A stretch of 64,000 nucleotides of DNA from Candidatus Gastranaerophilales bacterium (GTDB taxonomy: Bacteria > Cyanobacteriota > Vampirovibrionia > Gastranaerophilales > Gastranaerophilaceae). Position 1 is the stretch's first letter. Each line of letters begins with the position of its first letter. Below the pieces are notes generated by a model. That model was not told the origin of the DNA. It ran no database searches and saw nothing but the letters and a program-made list of their open reading frames with translations. Position numbers and translations under genes: made by a program. Shown one piece after another: positions 29,454 through 44,977 of the stretch. Where the stretch lies: positions 1 to 64,000 of the forward strand of contig CALUQH010000032.1 in assembly GCA_944322885.1 (NCBI GenBank). The letters run 5' to 3'.

Positions 29454-29880
29454 AGTATAATTTACCTCTCCAAAGGAGGTAGGGTTATTAATTATTCCCT
29501 CCCTTTTTAGGGAGGGCAGGGGTGGGTAACAAACTTTTAAGTTTATGCGATTGCGTGTCAAGCACGCAATGACGAAAATGATTGGTGGAGGATTTATTTT
29601 ATGTGCGGGAACTCTGCGTCCCCGCGCCCCGCACCAAATATTCTTGTCATTGCGCACCTGTTGCGCAATCTAATATTTGTTATAATACAGATCGCGGAAT
29701 AAATCCGCGATGACATAATTATTTAGTGTCATTGTGTACTTGATCCACAATCTCTTTACCACTCAAACAGCATCCGCTTTGACACTGTTTCATTAAGTGC
29801 AGATTATTTAAAATTTTATGTACGCAAAGCGTACCATAACGACTTAGCGACTTAGTGACTTAACGTCTTATCGACTTCTA
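29454..29880. repeat. Cluster of palindromic intergenic repeats (gene-free region)
   Basis: The 559 bases between 29354 and 29912 hold no believable gene but at least seven repeat modules. They are CCCTCCC-TTTTT-AGGGAGGG (29497-29515), ATTGCGTG/CACGCAAT ending in GAC (29550-29573), GTCATTGCGCA/TTGCGCAATC (29645-29670), ATCGCGGA/TCCGCGAT ending in GAC (29691-29714), GTCATTGTG/CACAATCTC (29728-29753), GTACGC/GCGTAC (29820-29834), and an 8-bp tandem repeat of CGACTTAG type, five copies (29840-29879). Four modules begin or end with GTCAT/ATGAC, the boundary also seen at 38790 and 53700. A minus-strand frame here (29400-29657) is made of these repeats and is not a gene. Confidence 0.8.
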
Positions 29881-31531: not shown

Positions 31532-33259
31532 ATGAATAAACAATATCCGGTATATACACTGGTTAATGAATGCCACGACTGTTACAAATGCATCAGAGAA
31601 TGCCCTGTTAAAGCTATCAAAATCGAAGACGGCCATGCATCTGTCATTCCGGAAAGGTGTATAGCCTGCGGAAACTGTGTTAAGGCATGTCCTTCAAACG
31701 CAAAACGCGTCAGAAATGATATTGATAAAGCAAAAAACTTAATTCTTGCACAAAAAGATGTTTATGTTTCACTTGCACCTTCATGGCGTGCTTCTTTTGA
31801 AAATTCCGCAGAAAAAATGATTGCCGTTTTAAAACGCCTCGGATTTAAAGATGTTTCGGAAACTGCTTTAGGCGCTCAGGAAGTTTCTATTAAAACCACT
31901 CAAATGCTTAATAATACGGAGCGCGGACTTTTTATTTCAAGTGCATGTCCTGTTATTGTTGACTATATAAGGCTTTATATGCCGGAATTCACAAAATACA
32001 TAACTCCTATCGGCTCACCATTAATGACTCATTCCAAATTATTAAAAAAAACTTACGGGGATGATATTTCAATAGTATTTATAGGGCCTTGTATAGGTAA
32101 GAAAAATGAAGTTACATATTCAGGTTTGTTTGATGTTGCCCTGACGTTTGATGAACTCAGGATGTGGATTAATGATGAAATTATCGACATATCTAAAATT
32201 GCAAAAGACAAAAGATACCAGTTTGTACCCGAATCCGCTTATGAAGGGACATTATATCCGATTGACGGCGGAATGAATGAAACCATTAAAAAATCAGGAG
32301 TAAATGATAACGTACAGCTTCTGGAAGTGTGCGGCCTTCATGCCCTGCAGCGTGCGTTAAAAAATCTTGACGTTGAAAAGCTTGATAAAACAATATTTAT
32401 AGAAGCTTTAGCCTGCGAAGGCGGATGTGTCGGCGGTCCCTGTATTTCTTCCGAAAAAGCAGGTATTGTAATGGTGTCCGATATTTTAACAAAAGAAAAG
32501 AAGCGCGACAAAATTCCTGAAGAACCAAAAGTTGTTGTAAATTATGATATTCAGCCGAAAAAAGTTGTTCATTCGGATTATCCTCTGGAAGATATTCTTG
32601 CAACACTTAAAAAAATCGGCAAACATACAGTCGATGATGAGCTGAACTGCGGAGGCTGCGGTTATGCTACATGCCGCGACTTAGCCAAAGCTTTGTTGGA
32701 CGGAGATGCAGAACCCTCAATGTGCGTGTCATACATGAGAAAAATCGCCGTCAGAAAAGCTGCGGCAATGATACGCTGCATGCCAGCTGCCGTCGTTATG
32801 GTTGACAATAATATGAATATTATTGAGGCAAACGACAGTTTTATGAAAATGTTTACAGGCGATATGTATGATGTGTTTAAAAGCCGTCCGGACGGACTTA
32901 AAGGTGCGGCGATAGACCGAATTATAGATTTTGCAGACATTTTCAGAACGATTTTGAAAACCGGAAAAGATCTTCATAAAGAACGCTACCATGTTAAAAA
33001 CCGCCTTTACGATATTTCGGCCTTTACTATTGAAGAAAATGAAATTGTAGGGGCAGTAATTACTGACGTTACCTCCGCGGAAACAAATAGGGAAAAAATT
33101 TCTCAAAAAGCGCATGAAGTTATTTCTAAAAATATCTCTATTGTACAGGAAATTGCCTGTCTGCTTGGTGAGCACATGGTAGAAACAGAAACCCTGTTGA
33201 GTTCGATTGCCGAAGACTACGACGATAAAGACGAAGCAGGCAATGAGGGTAACAGTTAG
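31532..33259 (+). CDS. Group C (sensory-type) [FeFe]-hydrogenase homologue with PAS domain
   Basis: A 575-residue protein. Two [4Fe-4S] ferredoxin motifs (CHDCYKCIRECPVKAI, CIACGNCVKACPSNAK) precede an [FeFe]-hydrogenase domain (about 70-310) whose H-cluster motifs are of group C type: SSACP (L1), FIGPCIGKK (L2) and ALACEGGCVGGP (L3). An Fe-S domain (CGGCGYATC near 372) and a PAS domain (about 415-505) follow, and a helical tail of about 60 residues ends it. Such proteins (HydS/HfsB-like) are thought to sense redox or H2 and pass a signal rather than mainly make H2. The stop shares one base with the start of the PP2C gene (TAGTG), so the two are coupled. Confidence 0.88.
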   Translation: MNKQYPVYTLVNECHDCYKCIRECPVKAIKIEDGHASVIPERCIACGNCVKACPSNAKRVRNDIDKAKNLILAQKDVYVSLAPSWRASFENSAEKMIAVLKRLGFKDVSETALGAQEVSIKTTQMLNNTERGLFISSACPVIVDYIRLYMPEFTKYITPIGSPLMTHSKLLKKTYGDDISIVFIGPCIGKKNEVTYSGLFDVALTFDELRMWINDEIIDISKIAKDKRYQFVPESAYEGTLYPIDGGMNETIKKSGVNDNVQLLEVCGLHALQRALKNLDVEKLDKTIFIEALACEGGCVGGPCISSEKAGIVMVSDILTKEKKRDKIPEEPKVVVNYDIQPKKVVHSDYPLEDILATLKKIGKHTVDDELNCGGCGYATCRDLAKALLDGDAEPSMCVSYMRKIAVRKAAAMIRCMPAAVVMVDNNMNIIEANDSFMKMFTGDMYDVFKSRPDGLKGAAIDRIIDFADIFRTILKTGKDLHKERYHVKNRLYDISAFTIEENEIVGAVITDVTSAETNREKISQKAHEVISKNISIVQEIACLLGEHMVETETLLSSIAEDYDDKDEAGNEGNS

Positions 33260-34422
33260 TGTTTATTGATATTGATTGCAGCCAGATGAAAAAATATAAC
33301 CAGAATGCTTACGGGGATTATTTTATTTCCAAAAGATACCCCGATGAAGCGAAACTGATTGCTGTTCTTTCCGACGGTTTAGGCAGCGGAATTAAAGCAA
33401 ATATTTTATCCTGCATGACTGCAACAATGCTTTTAAAATTCATAGAAGGCGACCAGATACCAATCAGCAAGGCTGCCGAAATTATTATGAACTCGCTTCC
33501 CGTATGTCAGGTTAGAAAAATAAGTTACTCGACATTTTCAGCTATTGAGGTGGATGACGAAGGGAATGCAAAAATTGTTGAAGAAGGAAACCCACGGTTT
33601 ATATGGCTTAGAAACAATGAAGTTATGGATCCTGAATATAAATCAATTCCTTCAAAAACCTTTAAAAACCGTTGTTTAAAAATTTATAAAATTAAATTGC
33701 AGTTAGGTGACAGATTGATTTTCTGTTCTGACGGCGTCACACAATCCGGGCTCGGCGGCGGGCGGTTGAAGCTTGGGCTAAGACGTGAAGGCTTAATTGT
33801 CCTTTTACAGGATAAGCTGAAAGAACATCCCGATATTTCAAGTACCGAACTTGCCCAGTATATAGTAAATCAGGCAAGAAATATTGAAACTGACAGGCTT
33901 CCCAAAGATGATATTTCTGCATGCGCAATTTATTTCAGAGAACCCAGAGAAGCACTGGTATTCACAGGGCCGCCTTATCATCAGGAAAAAGATGCCGAAT
34001 ATGCAAAAATGTTTGCTAATTTCAAAGGGAAAAAAGCAATCTGCGGGGGTACAACCGCAAATTTAATATCAAGAGAACTTAACAGGCCTATTACAATGGA
34101 TACAACAATAAGTATAGGCAAACTCCCTGCCTGCTCATATATGGAAGGGGTTGATCTGGTAACTGAAGGGATACTTACTCTTACTAAAGCCATGGAATAT
34201 CTGGAGGCAAATACTCCTGAGATTGATAATGCCGCAGGGAAACTGGTGAGATTTTTATTAGACAGCGACTGCATATATTTTATGGTAGGGGCAAAACTAA
34301 ATCAGGCGCATTATGACCCAGCCCTTCCCATAGAAATCGAAATCAGAAAAAATATTATCAAAAAAATGTCGAATTTGCTTCAAGAAAAATATTTTAAAAA
34401 AGTTAATATACAATACATGTAA
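33259..34422 (+). CDS. PP2C/SpoIIE-type serine phosphatase of the hydrogenase locus
   Basis: A 387-residue protein. The N-terminal part is a SpoIIE/PP2C-like phosphatase domain: LIAVLSDGLGSGIKANILSCMTA (metal-binding Asp in SDGLGSG), LGDRLIFCSDGVTQSG and LPKDDISACAIYF (metal-binding DD). An additional C-terminal domain follows (KGKKAICGGTTANLISRELNR...). It starts with GTG overlapping the stop of the group C hydrogenase gene by one base. This coupling suggests that the PAS/hydrogenase protein controls the phosphatase, which would dephosphorylate an unknown Ser/Thr protein, e.g. an anti-sigma-antagonist. No kinase or STAS gene is adjacent. Comparable hydrogenase-phosphatase neighbours occur in clostridial hfs-type clusters. 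Confidence 0.87.
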   Translation: MFIDIDCSQMKKYNQNAYGDYFISKRYPDEAKLIAVLSDGLGSGIKANILSCMTATMLLKFIEGDQIPISKAAEIIMNSLPVCQVRKISYSTFSAIEVDDEGNAKIVEEGNPRFIWLRNNEVMDPEYKSIPSKTFKNRCLKIYKIKLQLGDRLIFCSDGVTQSGLGGGRLKLGLRREGLIVLLQDKLKEHPDISSTELAQYIVNQARNIETDRLPKDDISACAIYFREPREALVFTGPPYHQEKDAEYAKMFANFKGKKAICGGTTANLISRELNRPITMDTTISIGKLPACSYMEGVDLVTEGILTLTKAMEYLEANTPEIDNAAGKLVRFLLDSDCIYFMVGAKLNQAHYDPALPIEIEIRKNIIKKMSNLLQEKYFKKVNIQYM

Positions 34423-34463
34423 AAAAGATTGAAAAAATAAATTTATAATTGTAAAATTACAAT

Positions 34464-34628
34464 AAAGTATAATGAAGGTTAATAGAAAGGGTTAAAAAGG
34501 AGGCGAAGCCTCTGGCAAAAATATAACAAAGTATAACTAAAATTGACGGAATGGATAAAAAGGAGGCAAAGCCTCTGACGAAAATATCAGAAGTATAACG
34601 AATATTAATAGAAAGGGTAAAAAGAAAA
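34464..34628 (+). repeat. 62-64 bp tandem leader repeat before the second ferredoxin gene
   Basis: Two full units (34464-34527, 34528-34589) and a third partial unit (34590-34628) that runs directly into the ATG. Each unit starts (A/G)AAGTATAA, has an AAAGGG- or GGAT-type purine run, then AAAAAG. In full units this is followed by GGAGGC-G/AAA-GCCTCT, a hairpin that hides a perfect GGAGG, and a GGC/GAC-AAAATAT tail. The third unit replaces the hairpin with AAAAATG. The units are homologous to the 65-bp repeat upstream of lpxA (44716-44862). Confidence 0.85.
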
Positions 34629-34886
34629 ATGAGCGAAAAAGTTAGTGTTAAAGTATGTTTGGGAACAACATGTTTCGTAATGGGGTCGTCTAATTTACAG
34701 GAATTAATCGAAATGGTTCCTAAAAAATACGGTGACAAAGTAGAAGTTGCAGGAGTTCCTTGTTTAGGCTTATGTTCAATTGACTGGGAATTTTCAAAAG
34801 CACCTTATGTAAAAGTTGACGATGAGGTGATTAAAGAAGCAACTGTTGAAAAGGTTTTAAAAGCTATTGATGAAAAATTGAAATAG
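34629..34886 (+). CDS. Thioredoxin-like [2Fe-2S] ferredoxin of the hydrogenase locus
   Basis: An 85-residue thioredoxin-fold ferredoxin with ligands CLGTTC (C-x4-C) and CLGLC (C-x3-C), paralogous to the protein at 31251. The AAAGGG of the last tandem unit lies 11 bases before the ATG, so the repeat supplies its ribosome-binding site. An intrinsic terminator separates it from the group B-like hydrogenase gene at 35021. It may deliver electrons to either hydrogenase. It is likely the end of the purB-ferredoxin-hydS-phosphatase run or a separate unit with the repeat as leader. Confidence 0.87.
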   Translation: MSEKVSVKVCLGTTCFVMGSSNLQELIEMVPKKYGDKVEVAGVPCLGLCSIDWEFSKAPYVKVDDEVIKEATVEKVLKAIDEKLK

Positions 34887-34914
34887 TATTTAAATTAAAA
34901 ATGATATAATTAGT

Positions 34915-34946
34915 TAAAAGCTCCCATACTTAATAGGAGCTTTTAT
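34915..34946 (+). terminator. Intrinsic terminator before the group B-like hydrogenase gene
   Basis: AAAAGCTCC / GGAGCTTTTA stem-loop with a 12-base loop followed by TTATTATAT. It makes the downstream hydrogenase a separate transcription unit. Confidence 0.82.
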
Positions 34947-35020
34947 TATATATATTTGGAAAAATTTTATGTTCATGCCATAATATAAAATATATGGAAT
35001 AGTAAAGAGGAAAAAGATAT

Positions 35021-36496
35021 ATGGCAATGAATACCAGCACTCCAAAAGAAACATCACATTTAAAAAGAGAGATTTTAGTAAGGCTGATAAAAGCATATTT
35101 GAGTGGTAACTTTGAAGAAAATACAAGACTTATACCTTATGCTATGCGTCCGAAAAACAGCGATGTTCCCAATTACAGGTGCTGTATTTTTAAAGAACGT
35201 GCAATTTTAAGGGACAGAGCTATTGCCGGTTTGGGATTTTCTATTGAAGATACGGATGACAGTGTTCTTCTCTCAGACTTAGCCCAAAAAGCAGAAAAAA
35301 GAGAAGTTCCAGATGAACACCCTCTTACGGTTCTTACAACCGCATGCAAAGGCTGCGTTCCTTCAAGAATTTATGTAACGGATTTATGTCAGGGCTGTGT
35401 TGCAAGGCCTTGCGTAAATACATGTAAATTCGGCGCAATTTCAATACAGAATGGTAAATCAGTTATAGATCCAGCAAAATGTAAAAATTGCGGAATGTGC
35501 GTTCAGGTTTGTCCTTATCAAGCAATTCAGAAAATTATTGTTCCGTGTGAAAGTGCATGCCCTGTCGGTGCAATTGCCAAAGATGAAAACGGACATGCAA
35601 AAATAGATTTTGACAAATGTATTTCCTGCGGTAAATGTGCATCAGCCTGCCCGTTTGGTGCGGTTCATGAAAAAAGCCAGATTATTGATGTACTTAAACA
35701 AATTAAAGCGGGGAAAAAGGTAATTGCAATGGTTGCTCCTGCAATGTTCGGCCAGCTTCCGTGTAAACCGCAGCAGCTTAAAGAAGCTATAATGGAGCTT
35801 GGTTTTGCGGATGTTTACGAGGTTGCTCAAGGTGCAGATGTTACAACAAAAACCGAAGCTGCCGAATTTGAGGAAAGACTTGTAAAAGGCGCTGAATTTA
35901 TGACAACTTCGTGCTGTGCAGGATATAACGAACTTGTTGATAAGCATATCCCTGAAATGAAGCCTTTCCGTTCAGACACAAAAACTCCAATGTATTACAC
36001 AGCAGAGATTGTAAAGAGAGAAAATCCGGATGCCGTAACCGTATTTTTCAGCCCCTGCGTTGCAAAAAAACGTGAAGCTCTTCAAAATCCTAACGTTGAT
36101 TACGTTTTGAATTATGAAGAAATAGGAGCCTGGATGGTTGCTCTGGGTATACAGGTTGCTGAATGCTCCGAAAGCGAGTTTAAACATGAGGCTTCCGCAG
36201 AAGGAAGAAATTACTGTGTATCCGGCGGAGTTGCAAAAGCAGTCGAAACGTTATTACCTGAAGAAATTCCGGCTCATGTAGTTTTAGTAGACGGACTTAC
36301 GAAACAGTCAGTTCGAGATTTGAAAAAATATGCCAAAAACGGAATGTGCGATTTAGGAAATCTGATTGAAGTAATGGCCTGCACAGGCGGATGTCTCGGC
36401 GGAAATTCAACTGTTAACGCATTCAAACCTGCATTAAAACAAGTTACATCATACGTAAATGAAAGCAAGTCAATAAAAGAACAGGTTGAAAATTAA
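35021..36496 (+). CDS. Group B-like [FeFe]-hydrogenase
   Basis: A 491-residue soluble hydrogenase. An N-terminal region of about 100 residues without known motif is followed by a Cys-rich ferredoxin-type part (CKGC, CQGCVARPCVNTC, CKNCGMCVQVCPYQA, CISCGKCASACPFGA; about 108-210), enough for three or more Fe-S clusters. The H-cluster domain then shows TTSCCAGY (L1, near 295), SPCVAKK (L2, near 344) and EVMACTGGCLGGNSTVN (L3, near 450), so all cluster cysteines are kept. The L1 and L3 variants fit group B rather than group A. It should reduce protons with ferredoxin during fermentation. AGAGG lies 11 bases before the ATG. Its own promoter follows the terminator at 34915. Confidence 0.9.
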   Translation: MAMNTSTPKETSHLKREILVRLIKAYLSGNFEENTRLIPYAMRPKNSDVPNYRCCIFKERAILRDRAIAGLGFSIEDTDDSVLLSDLAQKAEKREVPDEHPLTVLTTACKGCVPSRIYVTDLCQGCVARPCVNTCKFGAISIQNGKSVIDPAKCKNCGMCVQVCPYQAIQKIIVPCESACPVGAIAKDENGHAKIDFDKCISCGKCASACPFGAVHEKSQIIDVLKQIKAGKKVIAMVAPAMFGQLPCKPQQLKEAIMELGFADVYEVAQGADVTTKTEAAEFEERLVKGAEFMTTSCCAGYNELVDKHIPEMKPFRSDTKTPMYYTAEIVKRENPDAVTVFFSPCVAKKREALQNPNVDYVLNYEEIGAWMVALGIQVAECSESEFKHEASAEGRNYCVSGGVAKAVETLLPEEIPAHVVLVDGLTKQSVRDLKKYAKNGMCDLGNLIEVMACTGGCLGGNSTVNAFKPALKQVTSYVNESKSIKEQVEN

Positions 36497-43904: not shown

Positions 43905-44708
43905 CTACGCTTCTAATGATTCATGACCTGACTTATGGGTTTTTAAAAGCACCCCGCGTTTAGACGTCTGGATAAATTCAATCATTTTTTCAATATACTC
44001 ATTCATCGGAATTTCAGCTTTAATTTTTTCGATAGCCTGAGTTGTGTTATATTCATCTGAAATCAAAAGTTTAAATGCTTCATTAGTAGCAGTTCTGATT
44101 TCCTGAGAAACGCCGCGTCTTTTCATAGCAATAACATTCAAGCCGCGCGGAACGGGCGGTCTGCCTTCGCCCTTTGAATACGGCAAAATATCCTGACGGG
44201 AAGCAGAGAAACCGCTTATAATTGCCATATCACCTATTCTTATATTTTGATGGAATACACTCATACCGCCGACAAATGCGCCGAAGCCTACATGAACATG
44301 CCCGCCTAAAGTTACGAGATTTGCTAAGATTACCTCATCTGCAAGAACACAGTTATGAGCGACATGAGAGCCAACCATGAGCAAGCATTTTTTACCTATT
44401 CTTGTTGTAAAATCTCCGCAAGCAGCACCTCTGTGAACAGTTACATTTTCTTTTATAATTGTTCCGTCACCGATAACAACTTTTGTAGGTTCACCCTTGT
44501 AGCCCAAATCCTGAGGTTCGGACCCTATTGTTGCAAATGGAGAAATCGTACAGTCATCCCCGATTTCTGCAAATTCAATATGAGCATTTGAAATTACTCT
44601 TGTTCTGTGCCCTATTGTAACATTTTCACCTATAACAACATATGGTCCTATTATTGCGTCATCTGCGATTTTTGCTGACGGATGAATAATTGCGGTTTTG
44701 TCTATCAT
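43905..44708 (-). CDS. lpxA: UDP-N-acetylglucosamine O-acyltransferase
   Basis: A 267-residue left-handed beta-helix enzyme for the first step of lipid A synthesis (acyl-ACP to UDP-GlcNAc). Hexapeptide repeats run from IHPSAKIADDAIIGPYVVIG to about residue 185. HVAHNCVL holds the catalytic His, and the C-terminal helical domain ends it. The 65-bp tandem leader repeat runs up to the ATG and supplies the AAAGAGGG ribosome-binding site. Unusually, it is separated from fabZ-lpxC-lpxD by a 1.6-kb unknown gene and the repeats; lpxB is not in the window. Confidence 0.96.
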   Translation of the reverse strand: MIDKTAIIHPSAKIADDAIIGPYVVIGENVTIGHRTRVISNAHIEFAEIGDDCTISPFATIGSEPQDLGYKGEPTKVVIGDGTIIKENVTVHRGAACGDFTTRIGKKCLLMVGSHVAHNCVLADEVILANLVTLGGHVHVGFGAFVGGMSVFHQNIRIGDMAIISGFSASRQDILPYSKGEGRPPVPRGLNVIAMKRRGVSQEIRTATNEAFKLLISDEYNTTQAIEKIKAEIPMNEYIEKMIEFIQTSKRGVLLKTHKSGHESLEA

Positions 44709-44715
44709 CTTTTTT

Positions 44716-44862
44716 GCCCTCTTTGTCGATTTTTGTGATACTTATTATTTTTTTGTCAGAGGCTTCGCCTCCGCTTTTTTGCCCTCTTTGTCGATTTTTG
44801 TATTACTTGTTATTATATTGTCAGCGGCTTTGCCTCCGCTTTTTTGCCCTCTTTATCGATTT
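44716..44862 (-). repeat. 65-bp tandem leader repeat upstream of lpxA
   Basis: Units start at 44716, 44781 and 44846, a period of exactly 65. The first two are full; the third keeps only about 17 bases before it diverges. Read on the coding strand, each unit has GGAGGCGAAGCCTC (a hairpin covering a perfect GGAGG), a GAC-AAAA stretch and then CGACAAAGAGGGCAAAAAAG, which in the last unit is the ribosome-binding site of lpxA. The units are homologous to the repeat at 34464-34628. Confidence 0.87.
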
Positions 44863-44977
44863 TGTTGGTTTTTTAGAGTTTTTGCCGGTCGTTCACGGAG
44901 GTTAGCTCCCGTTTTTCCTCTCTTTTACCATTAAATCAATTATAGTACAAATCCGCGTTGGTCACAAAATTTTTATA

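Follow-up and report, generated by a model that had tools for sequence, protein, structure and literature searches.

The window, that is, the whole stretch of 64,000 nucleotides that was analysed, is part of the 1.86 Mb draft genome (G000, contig C32) of a Candidatus Gastranaerophilales bacterium. It contains two arrays of short tandem repeats, located immediately upstream of two genes on opposite strands. Tandem Repeats Finder, run on the window, placed one array at 34464-34624 (period 63, 2.6 copies), ahead of a gene for a thioredoxin-like [2Fe-2S] ferredoxin that adjoins an [FeFe]-hydrogenase gene, and the other at 44709-44863 (period 65, 2.4 copies), ahead of lpxA. The final ferredoxin unit stops 5 nt short of the ATG at 34629, and the final lpxA unit stops 2 nt before the ATG at 44708, on the minus strand. 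The features of the two leaders are the following:

34429-34457, plus strand: promoter-like site TTGAAA-17-TAAAAT, a match to the consensus only, upstream of the ferredoxin array
34453-34497, plus strand: half-unit without the hairpin, with the SD AGTATAATGAAGGTTAATAGAAAGGGTTAAAAA; it matches the single leader of G047 and is a weak model match (E 0.86)
34498-34561, plus strand: ferredoxin unit A, with the hairpin GGAGGCGAAGCCTC, CTGGC, an A-rich spacer, a degraded SD GGAATGG and TAAAAA
34562-34623, plus strand: ferredoxin unit B, with the hairpin GGAGGCAAAGCCTC, CTGAC, a spacer, the SD GAAAGGG and TAAAAA
34629-34886, plus strand: thioredoxin-like [2Fe-2S] ferredoxin gene (PF01257), downstream of the leader
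44939-44967, minus strand: lpxA promoter-like site TTGTGA-17-TATAAT
44841-44911, minus strand: diverged first lpxA unit (CGGGAGCTAACCTCCGTGAACGACCGGC ... AAAGAGGGCAAAAA), a weak match (E 0.15)
44776-44839, minus strand: lpxA unit 1, with the hairpin block GGAGGCAAAGCCGC, a spacer, the SD AAAGAGGG and CAAAAA
44711-44774, minus strand: lpxA unit 2, with the hairpin GGAGGCGAAGCCTC, a spacer, the SD AAAGAGGG and CAAAAA
43905-44708, minus strand: lpxA (PF00132, PF13720)

The original prediction, made from the letters of the window, had placed homologous leader repeats ahead of these two unrelated genes, and in this it was right: the arrays lie where it had put them, with periods of 63 and 65, they match each other in a whole-genome search (blastn E = 1.2e-15), and the downstream genes encode unrelated proteins, the ferredoxin and LpxA. 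When up to two mismatches were allowed, the hairpin GGAGGCRAAGCCTC occurred five times in the window, against 0.25 expected, and none of 100 shuffled sequences reached five; four of the five matches fall within the two arrays. The prediction had also counted two full and one partial unit before the ferredoxin gene. The full units stand, and the partial one is probably the native leader with its first SD rather than an incomplete copy of the repeat, because it matches the single leader, devoid of hairpin, that the ferredoxin gene has kept in G047. Since the promoter-like site lies upstream of the ferredoxin array, the units would fall within the transcribed leader. Promoter-like sites precede both arrays of the window, and no promoter was found within the unit on the sense strand.

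Other features of the window lie close to these genes. Upstream of the ferredoxin and hydrogenase genes, in a locus that spans 31532-36496, there is a gene (31532-33259) for a second protein with an [FeFe]-hydrogenase domain, in this case together with a PAS domain, and a gene for a SpoIIE-type phosphatase (33259-34422) abuts it; the arrangement looks like a sensory hydrogenase pair. A different tandem repeat, the octamer CGACTTAG in 4.8 copies, occupies 29840-29877, a short way before the adenylosuccinate lyase gene (29913).

Repeat units are mostly 62-67 bp long, and as tandem units they span 53-67 bp, with one exception of 79. Each is built, in order, of a hairpin block, CTGAC, an A-rich spacer, often a second hairpin and then GAAAGGGTAAAAA, the end that stands 0-6 nt before the start codon. 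Eight units of the window genome align as a single family, in which GGAGGCRAAGCCTC or a related block is followed by CTGAC, the spacer AAAATATAAAAAGT, a variable stretch, GAAAGGG/AAAGAGG and TAAAAA. Among the 130 units listed in the genus, the 5′ block comes in three types: the 14-nt hairpin (type I), CGGGAGCGAACGTAAGTGAGCGACTGAC (type II), and CGGGAGCAAGCG separated by 25-60 nt of other DNA from AAAGCGAAGCGACTGAC (type III); the 3′ part is common to all three. In some type III units the interposed DNA holds a further palindrome, AGATCCTGAAACAAGTTCAGGATGACA, as if another repeat had inserted into the repeat, and the palindrome was also seen within certain units or immediately before them (L230, L233, L224, L212).

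All 81 terminal units and 43 of 44 internal ones have an intact SD, and SDs of the AAAGG and AGAGG types are ordinary in the window genome. Just upstream of the unit's SD, the second small hairpin is frequent: 105 distinct sequences gave a mean folding z of -0.87 against dinucleotide shuffles, with 36% below -1 and 2% above +1. When halves were swapped between sequences, the mean fold became weaker in all 300 permutations of the full set and in 298 of 300 after thinning at 85% identity. The signal was absent at 75% thinning (only sequences under 75% identity), and therefore covariation gives the second hairpin moderate support. On the opposite strand, a scan showed each type I hairpin to be followed by T-runs, in the manner of a terminator. 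Searches of the Rfam leader and riboswitch families at gathering score returned no credible match to the leader and a single tRNA in the window.

The family was followed in other genomes with two models. R1, built from sequence alone, gave about 19 significant matches in the window genome and matches, some of them weak, in all 23 sampled relatives of the same genus. A broader model, R2, was applied at E <= 1e-4 to 146 genomes of the order: this genus accounted for 17 of the genomes with matches and the genus g23 for five, two other genera gave one match each, and the remaining 122 genomes had none. In two g23 genomes units also precede the ferredoxin gene. The repeat family fills one genus of the Gastranaerophilales and is sparse in a neighbouring one, and the named database records that bear the same pattern are Candidatus Gastranaerophilales MAGs. 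A phage or plasmid origin was considered and rejected at the sensitivities used, as the hairpin and SD pattern had no match in IMG/VR and blastn had none in phage and plasmid collections. A Cloacimonadota hairpin match outside the order looks like chance. Two contigs of a Defluviitaleaceae MAG, the termite-gut Firmicute Emb289P1bin132, were likewise set aside, their likeness being limited to roughly the first 20 nt and their flanks being different. In that MAG the hairpin GGAGGCGAAGCCTCTG, preceded by TTTTTGGAGGTGTC or TTTTTGGAGGTGCC, stands just upstream of start codons (L281 742-790, L283 3423-3465), and it is perhaps another, independent leader repeat. A search confined largely to open-access papers found no description of repeats in Gastranaerophilales/Melainabacteria or of repeats linked to start codons.

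When the 130 units were read in their context, 77 lay 0-6 nt before an ATG or GTG that opens a long reading frame, and the others were internal tandem units, units cut by contig ends or units within ispD; this count is biased, as it rests on R1, a model trained on these very units, SD included. Because R1 contains the SD, two position tests that ignore it were made in 33 genomes of the genus. Exact copies of the hairpin GGAGGCRAAGCCTC number 48 and come from 14 of the 33 (a reversed-pattern control gave 0): 19 copies at lpxA, of which three, in G041, were assigned through the shared flank as the contig ends inside the array, 15 at the ferredoxin gene, six in ispD, three at a tolC-like gene, two each at frr and at a cbiM-like gene and one at secF (names other than lpxA, ispD and ferredoxin come from reading the N-terminal sequence). 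All 48 lie in sense-oriented leader arrays or in ispD and none is scattered. The exact type III block GCGAAGCGACTGAC behaves in the same way, since 17 of 17 copies are sense-oriented in leaders, a few of them cut by contig ends. Random scatter with respect to start codons, which would have made this an ordinary intergenic repeat, was thus not seen. The broader statement that the element always ends at a start codon is true of the leader arrays and fails in two places: in ispD, whose reading frame runs through the unit, and at L056 (C32:114670), a decayed intergenic unit with a different hairpin, in non-coding DNA without a start codon. Besides ispD, the latter is the only clear exception. What the sites seem to have in common is a sequence that resembles an SD, and not the start codon as such.

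Two observations concern the surroundings of the units. A second palindromic repeat, GGCGGGTGGAGCGGCTACGCTCC (with variants such as GGGTGGAGCAGCACGCTCC), is found beside some units and in intergenic clusters, at L056 1420-1600 (G000:C32, about 114590-114770), L031, L189 and L228. At G047:C15:76318-76442 (L257/L266), the 3′ end of a larC-like gene runs into the first unit, which has altered the last residues of that protein; the next gene, cbiM-like, is the one served by the unit.

The units in ispD bear on how units may arrive. The site could be read in 30 genomes of the genus and is empty in 27 of them, including G021, the sister of the window genome. The three filled sites hold full units, hairpin included, each of exactly 63 bp and in frame: one in G000, two in G023 and three in G008. 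In G000 the result is one insert of 21 residues, GKEVI-NGGEASDADIENRANI-GKEVI, flanked undisturbed by the residues of IspD that are invariant in the genus; an AlphaFold model of IspD with the insert, built on a shallow alignment, gives this segment a low confidence, with a pLDDT of about 32-48, consistent with a loop. At the nucleotide level, AAAGAGGTTATAAA is present on both sides of the insert and has the look of an SD followed by its A-rich spacer; the end of the unit itself is similar to it. The ispD data are explained equally well by a single gain with later losses and by separate gains.

Filled and empty sites were also found at the leaders. The TTTGTACTATAAT context of the lpxA promoter-like site is kept, exactly or nearly, both in species without units (G001, G019, G022, G043) and in species with one to four of them (G004, G007, G023, G021, G047, G020). 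The ferredoxin leader carries two units in G000, three in G021, four in G041 and five in G008. All copy numbers are lower bounds, as arrays often end contigs in these draft genomes. Copy number thus differs between species. On a three-gene tree, sister species differ at the same gene: four ferredoxin units in G041 versus none in G018, one lpxA unit in G004 versus none in G042, and ispD filled in G000 versus empty in G021. These pairs of filled and empty sites agree with the suggestion that the module is copied and pasted, with the caveat that units cluster by locus and not by genome: type I units of the same locus in different genomes have a mean identity of 0.87, compared with 0.73 for different loci within one genome, which points to arrays that are mostly old and change locally. 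From these identities, most arrays look old, with little recent dispersal, and some empty sites, for instance lpxA in G042, seem to have arisen by deletion, with the last SD retained. The lpxA leader of G001, without a trace of the unit's TAAAAA end, looks as though it was never filled.

Taken together, the units probably represent a small, non-autonomous interspersed repeat of one genus, which inserts at SD-like tracts and duplicates them, brings its own SD and amplifies locally. A unit, consisting of the 5′ hairpin GGAGGCGAAGCCTC or a related module, CTGAC, a spacer, often a second hairpin, the SD AAAGGG/AAAGAGG and TAAAAA, would insert in sense orientation only, at a purine tract that resembles an SD (AAAGRGG-N-TAAAA), and this tract would end up duplicated on both sides of the unit. 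The original SD would remain upstream, and the 3′ end of the last unit would give the gene a full ribosome-binding site at the normal distance from the start codon. The last unit does supply the SD that adjoins the start codon, and this SD is presumably the one used. Recombination between the duplicated ends would generate further tandem units, and units would be lost in the same manner. The copies in ispD may reflect the same type of event at an SD look-alike within the coding sequence, tolerated because the unit is 63 bp long and open in that frame.

The differences in presence and absence would then be explained by insertion rather than by loss, and the SD tract would be the target. If selection acted alone, copies would remain in neutral places, as is the case for BOX, RUP and SPRITE, and practically none was seen there; this argues that tracts resembling an SD are preferred as sites, and so does the copy in ispD, which lies at an SD look-alike inside a gene. 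A leader copy in antisense orientation would tend to be lost, given that the opposite strand resembles a terminator and offers no SD. As to copying, no enzyme that mobilises the units was found. Because the SD-like ends of an array unit match the target, the simplest proposal is copying driven by homology (template switching or gene conversion), which would also account for the gain and loss of tandem units. The apparent duplication of the target could instead arise because the end of the unit is itself homologous to ordinary SDs. Copying by a reverse transcriptase was rejected, as no such gene is present in G000 or in several unit-rich genomes.

Sense orientation beside start codons and an SD preserved in nearly every unit are also what would be expected of a functional 5′-UTR element (a translation enhancer, a standby site or an mRNA stabiliser) that is kept by selection and multiplied in tandem where higher expression is of use, its mobility being incidental or ancient. 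The second hairpin before the SD, for which none of the 300 half-swaps of the full set folded as well, and the promoter-like sites upstream of both window arrays would suit such a role. We nevertheless consider this reading unlikely, since sister species differ in the presence of units at the same gene, the genes concerned are housekeeping genes with no relation to one another, the copies in ispD form part of the protein rather than a leader, and the covariation signal is lost in the set thinned to sequences under 75% identity. The clustering of units by locus and the ferredoxin leader units of g23 could alternatively be read as orthologous leaders that descend from a non-mobile ancestral motif, expanded and contracted by slippage and lost in some species, with ispD as a single accident. 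This is improbable: ispD is empty in most of the genus and its filled sites hold the full unit, the lpxA leader of G001 shows no remnant of one, and the units of different genes have in common a hairpin, CTGAC and a spacer that are missing from empty leaders. It is more improbable still that the units are REP-type palindromes moved in trans by a RAYT/Y1 transposase. Six of the 33 genomes have Y1 transposase genes, and five of these six have exact hairpin units, yet the gene (PF01797) is absent from G000 and from most unit-bearing genomes, no unit lies near it in the relatives that carry it, no GTAG tag was seen and the flanking duplication is long.

The interpretation of the units as an interspersed repeat admits a bolder form, which we advance tentatively as a possibility falling a little short of probable: a selfish repeat that targets the SD itself and carries a replacement, so that insertion before an essential gene would be nearly harmless and the ispD copies would be off-target events. 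Among the genes with units, lpxA, secF, frr and mraY are usually essential. We know of no bacterial repeat family that targets the SD and brings a replacement for it. Most small bacterial repeats survive in harmless places, such as between convergent genes, and this family does the reverse, occupying the most sensitive spot of a gene, a few bases before the start codon, seemingly by virtue of its own ribosome-binding site. If this is right, it would be a route by which a repeat evades purifying selection and a source of natural leader variation in an uncultured gut lineage, and it would offer an allele series of 0 to 5 units per gene for studying the effects of leader units on expression.

Several known families share part of these properties. 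In their behaviour, the nearest analogues are the Rickettsia palindromic elements (RPEs), for in-frame insertion, and BOX, for a modular structure with a tandem core. RPEs are small palindromic repeats of about 150 bp that insert in frame into protein genes, nearly half of them lying within genes (PMC10969869), and for the CGTC-tagged class, which includes RPE-4 and RPE-6, no dedicated transposase has been reported (PMC3733652). The exact 63-bp, in-frame units of ispD in G000, G023 and G008 recall them; in contrast, compared by description, the units studied here are mostly 62-67 bp, end in an SD, are arranged in tandem and lie nearly all in leaders, having entered a single gene, ispD. In Streptococcus pneumoniae, BOX, RUP and SPRITE are modular small hairpin repeats, over-represented between convergent genes; the number of tandem boxB modules inside BOX varies, and BOX and RUP make target duplications (PMC3049150). 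Contrary to this location, the leader units are always upstream, in sense and joined by their SD to the start codon. REPs and other GTAG- and CGTC-tagged palindromes are short hairpin repeats that are sometimes clustered or found inside genes (PMC3733652). GTAG REPs are linked to RAYTs and tagged at one end, whereas the genome studied here has no RAYT and its units have no such tag, the foot of the hairpin in the aligned units being CTGAC (GTCAG on the other strand) and not an unpaired GTAG; the conserved part is also longer and includes the SD. With regard to MITEs, no terminal inverted repeats are evident by eye, the ends of the unit being a hairpin and a purine tract, and AAAGAGGTTATAAA on both sides of the ispD insert may be a target duplication of their kind or may reflect the likeness of the unit's own end to it.
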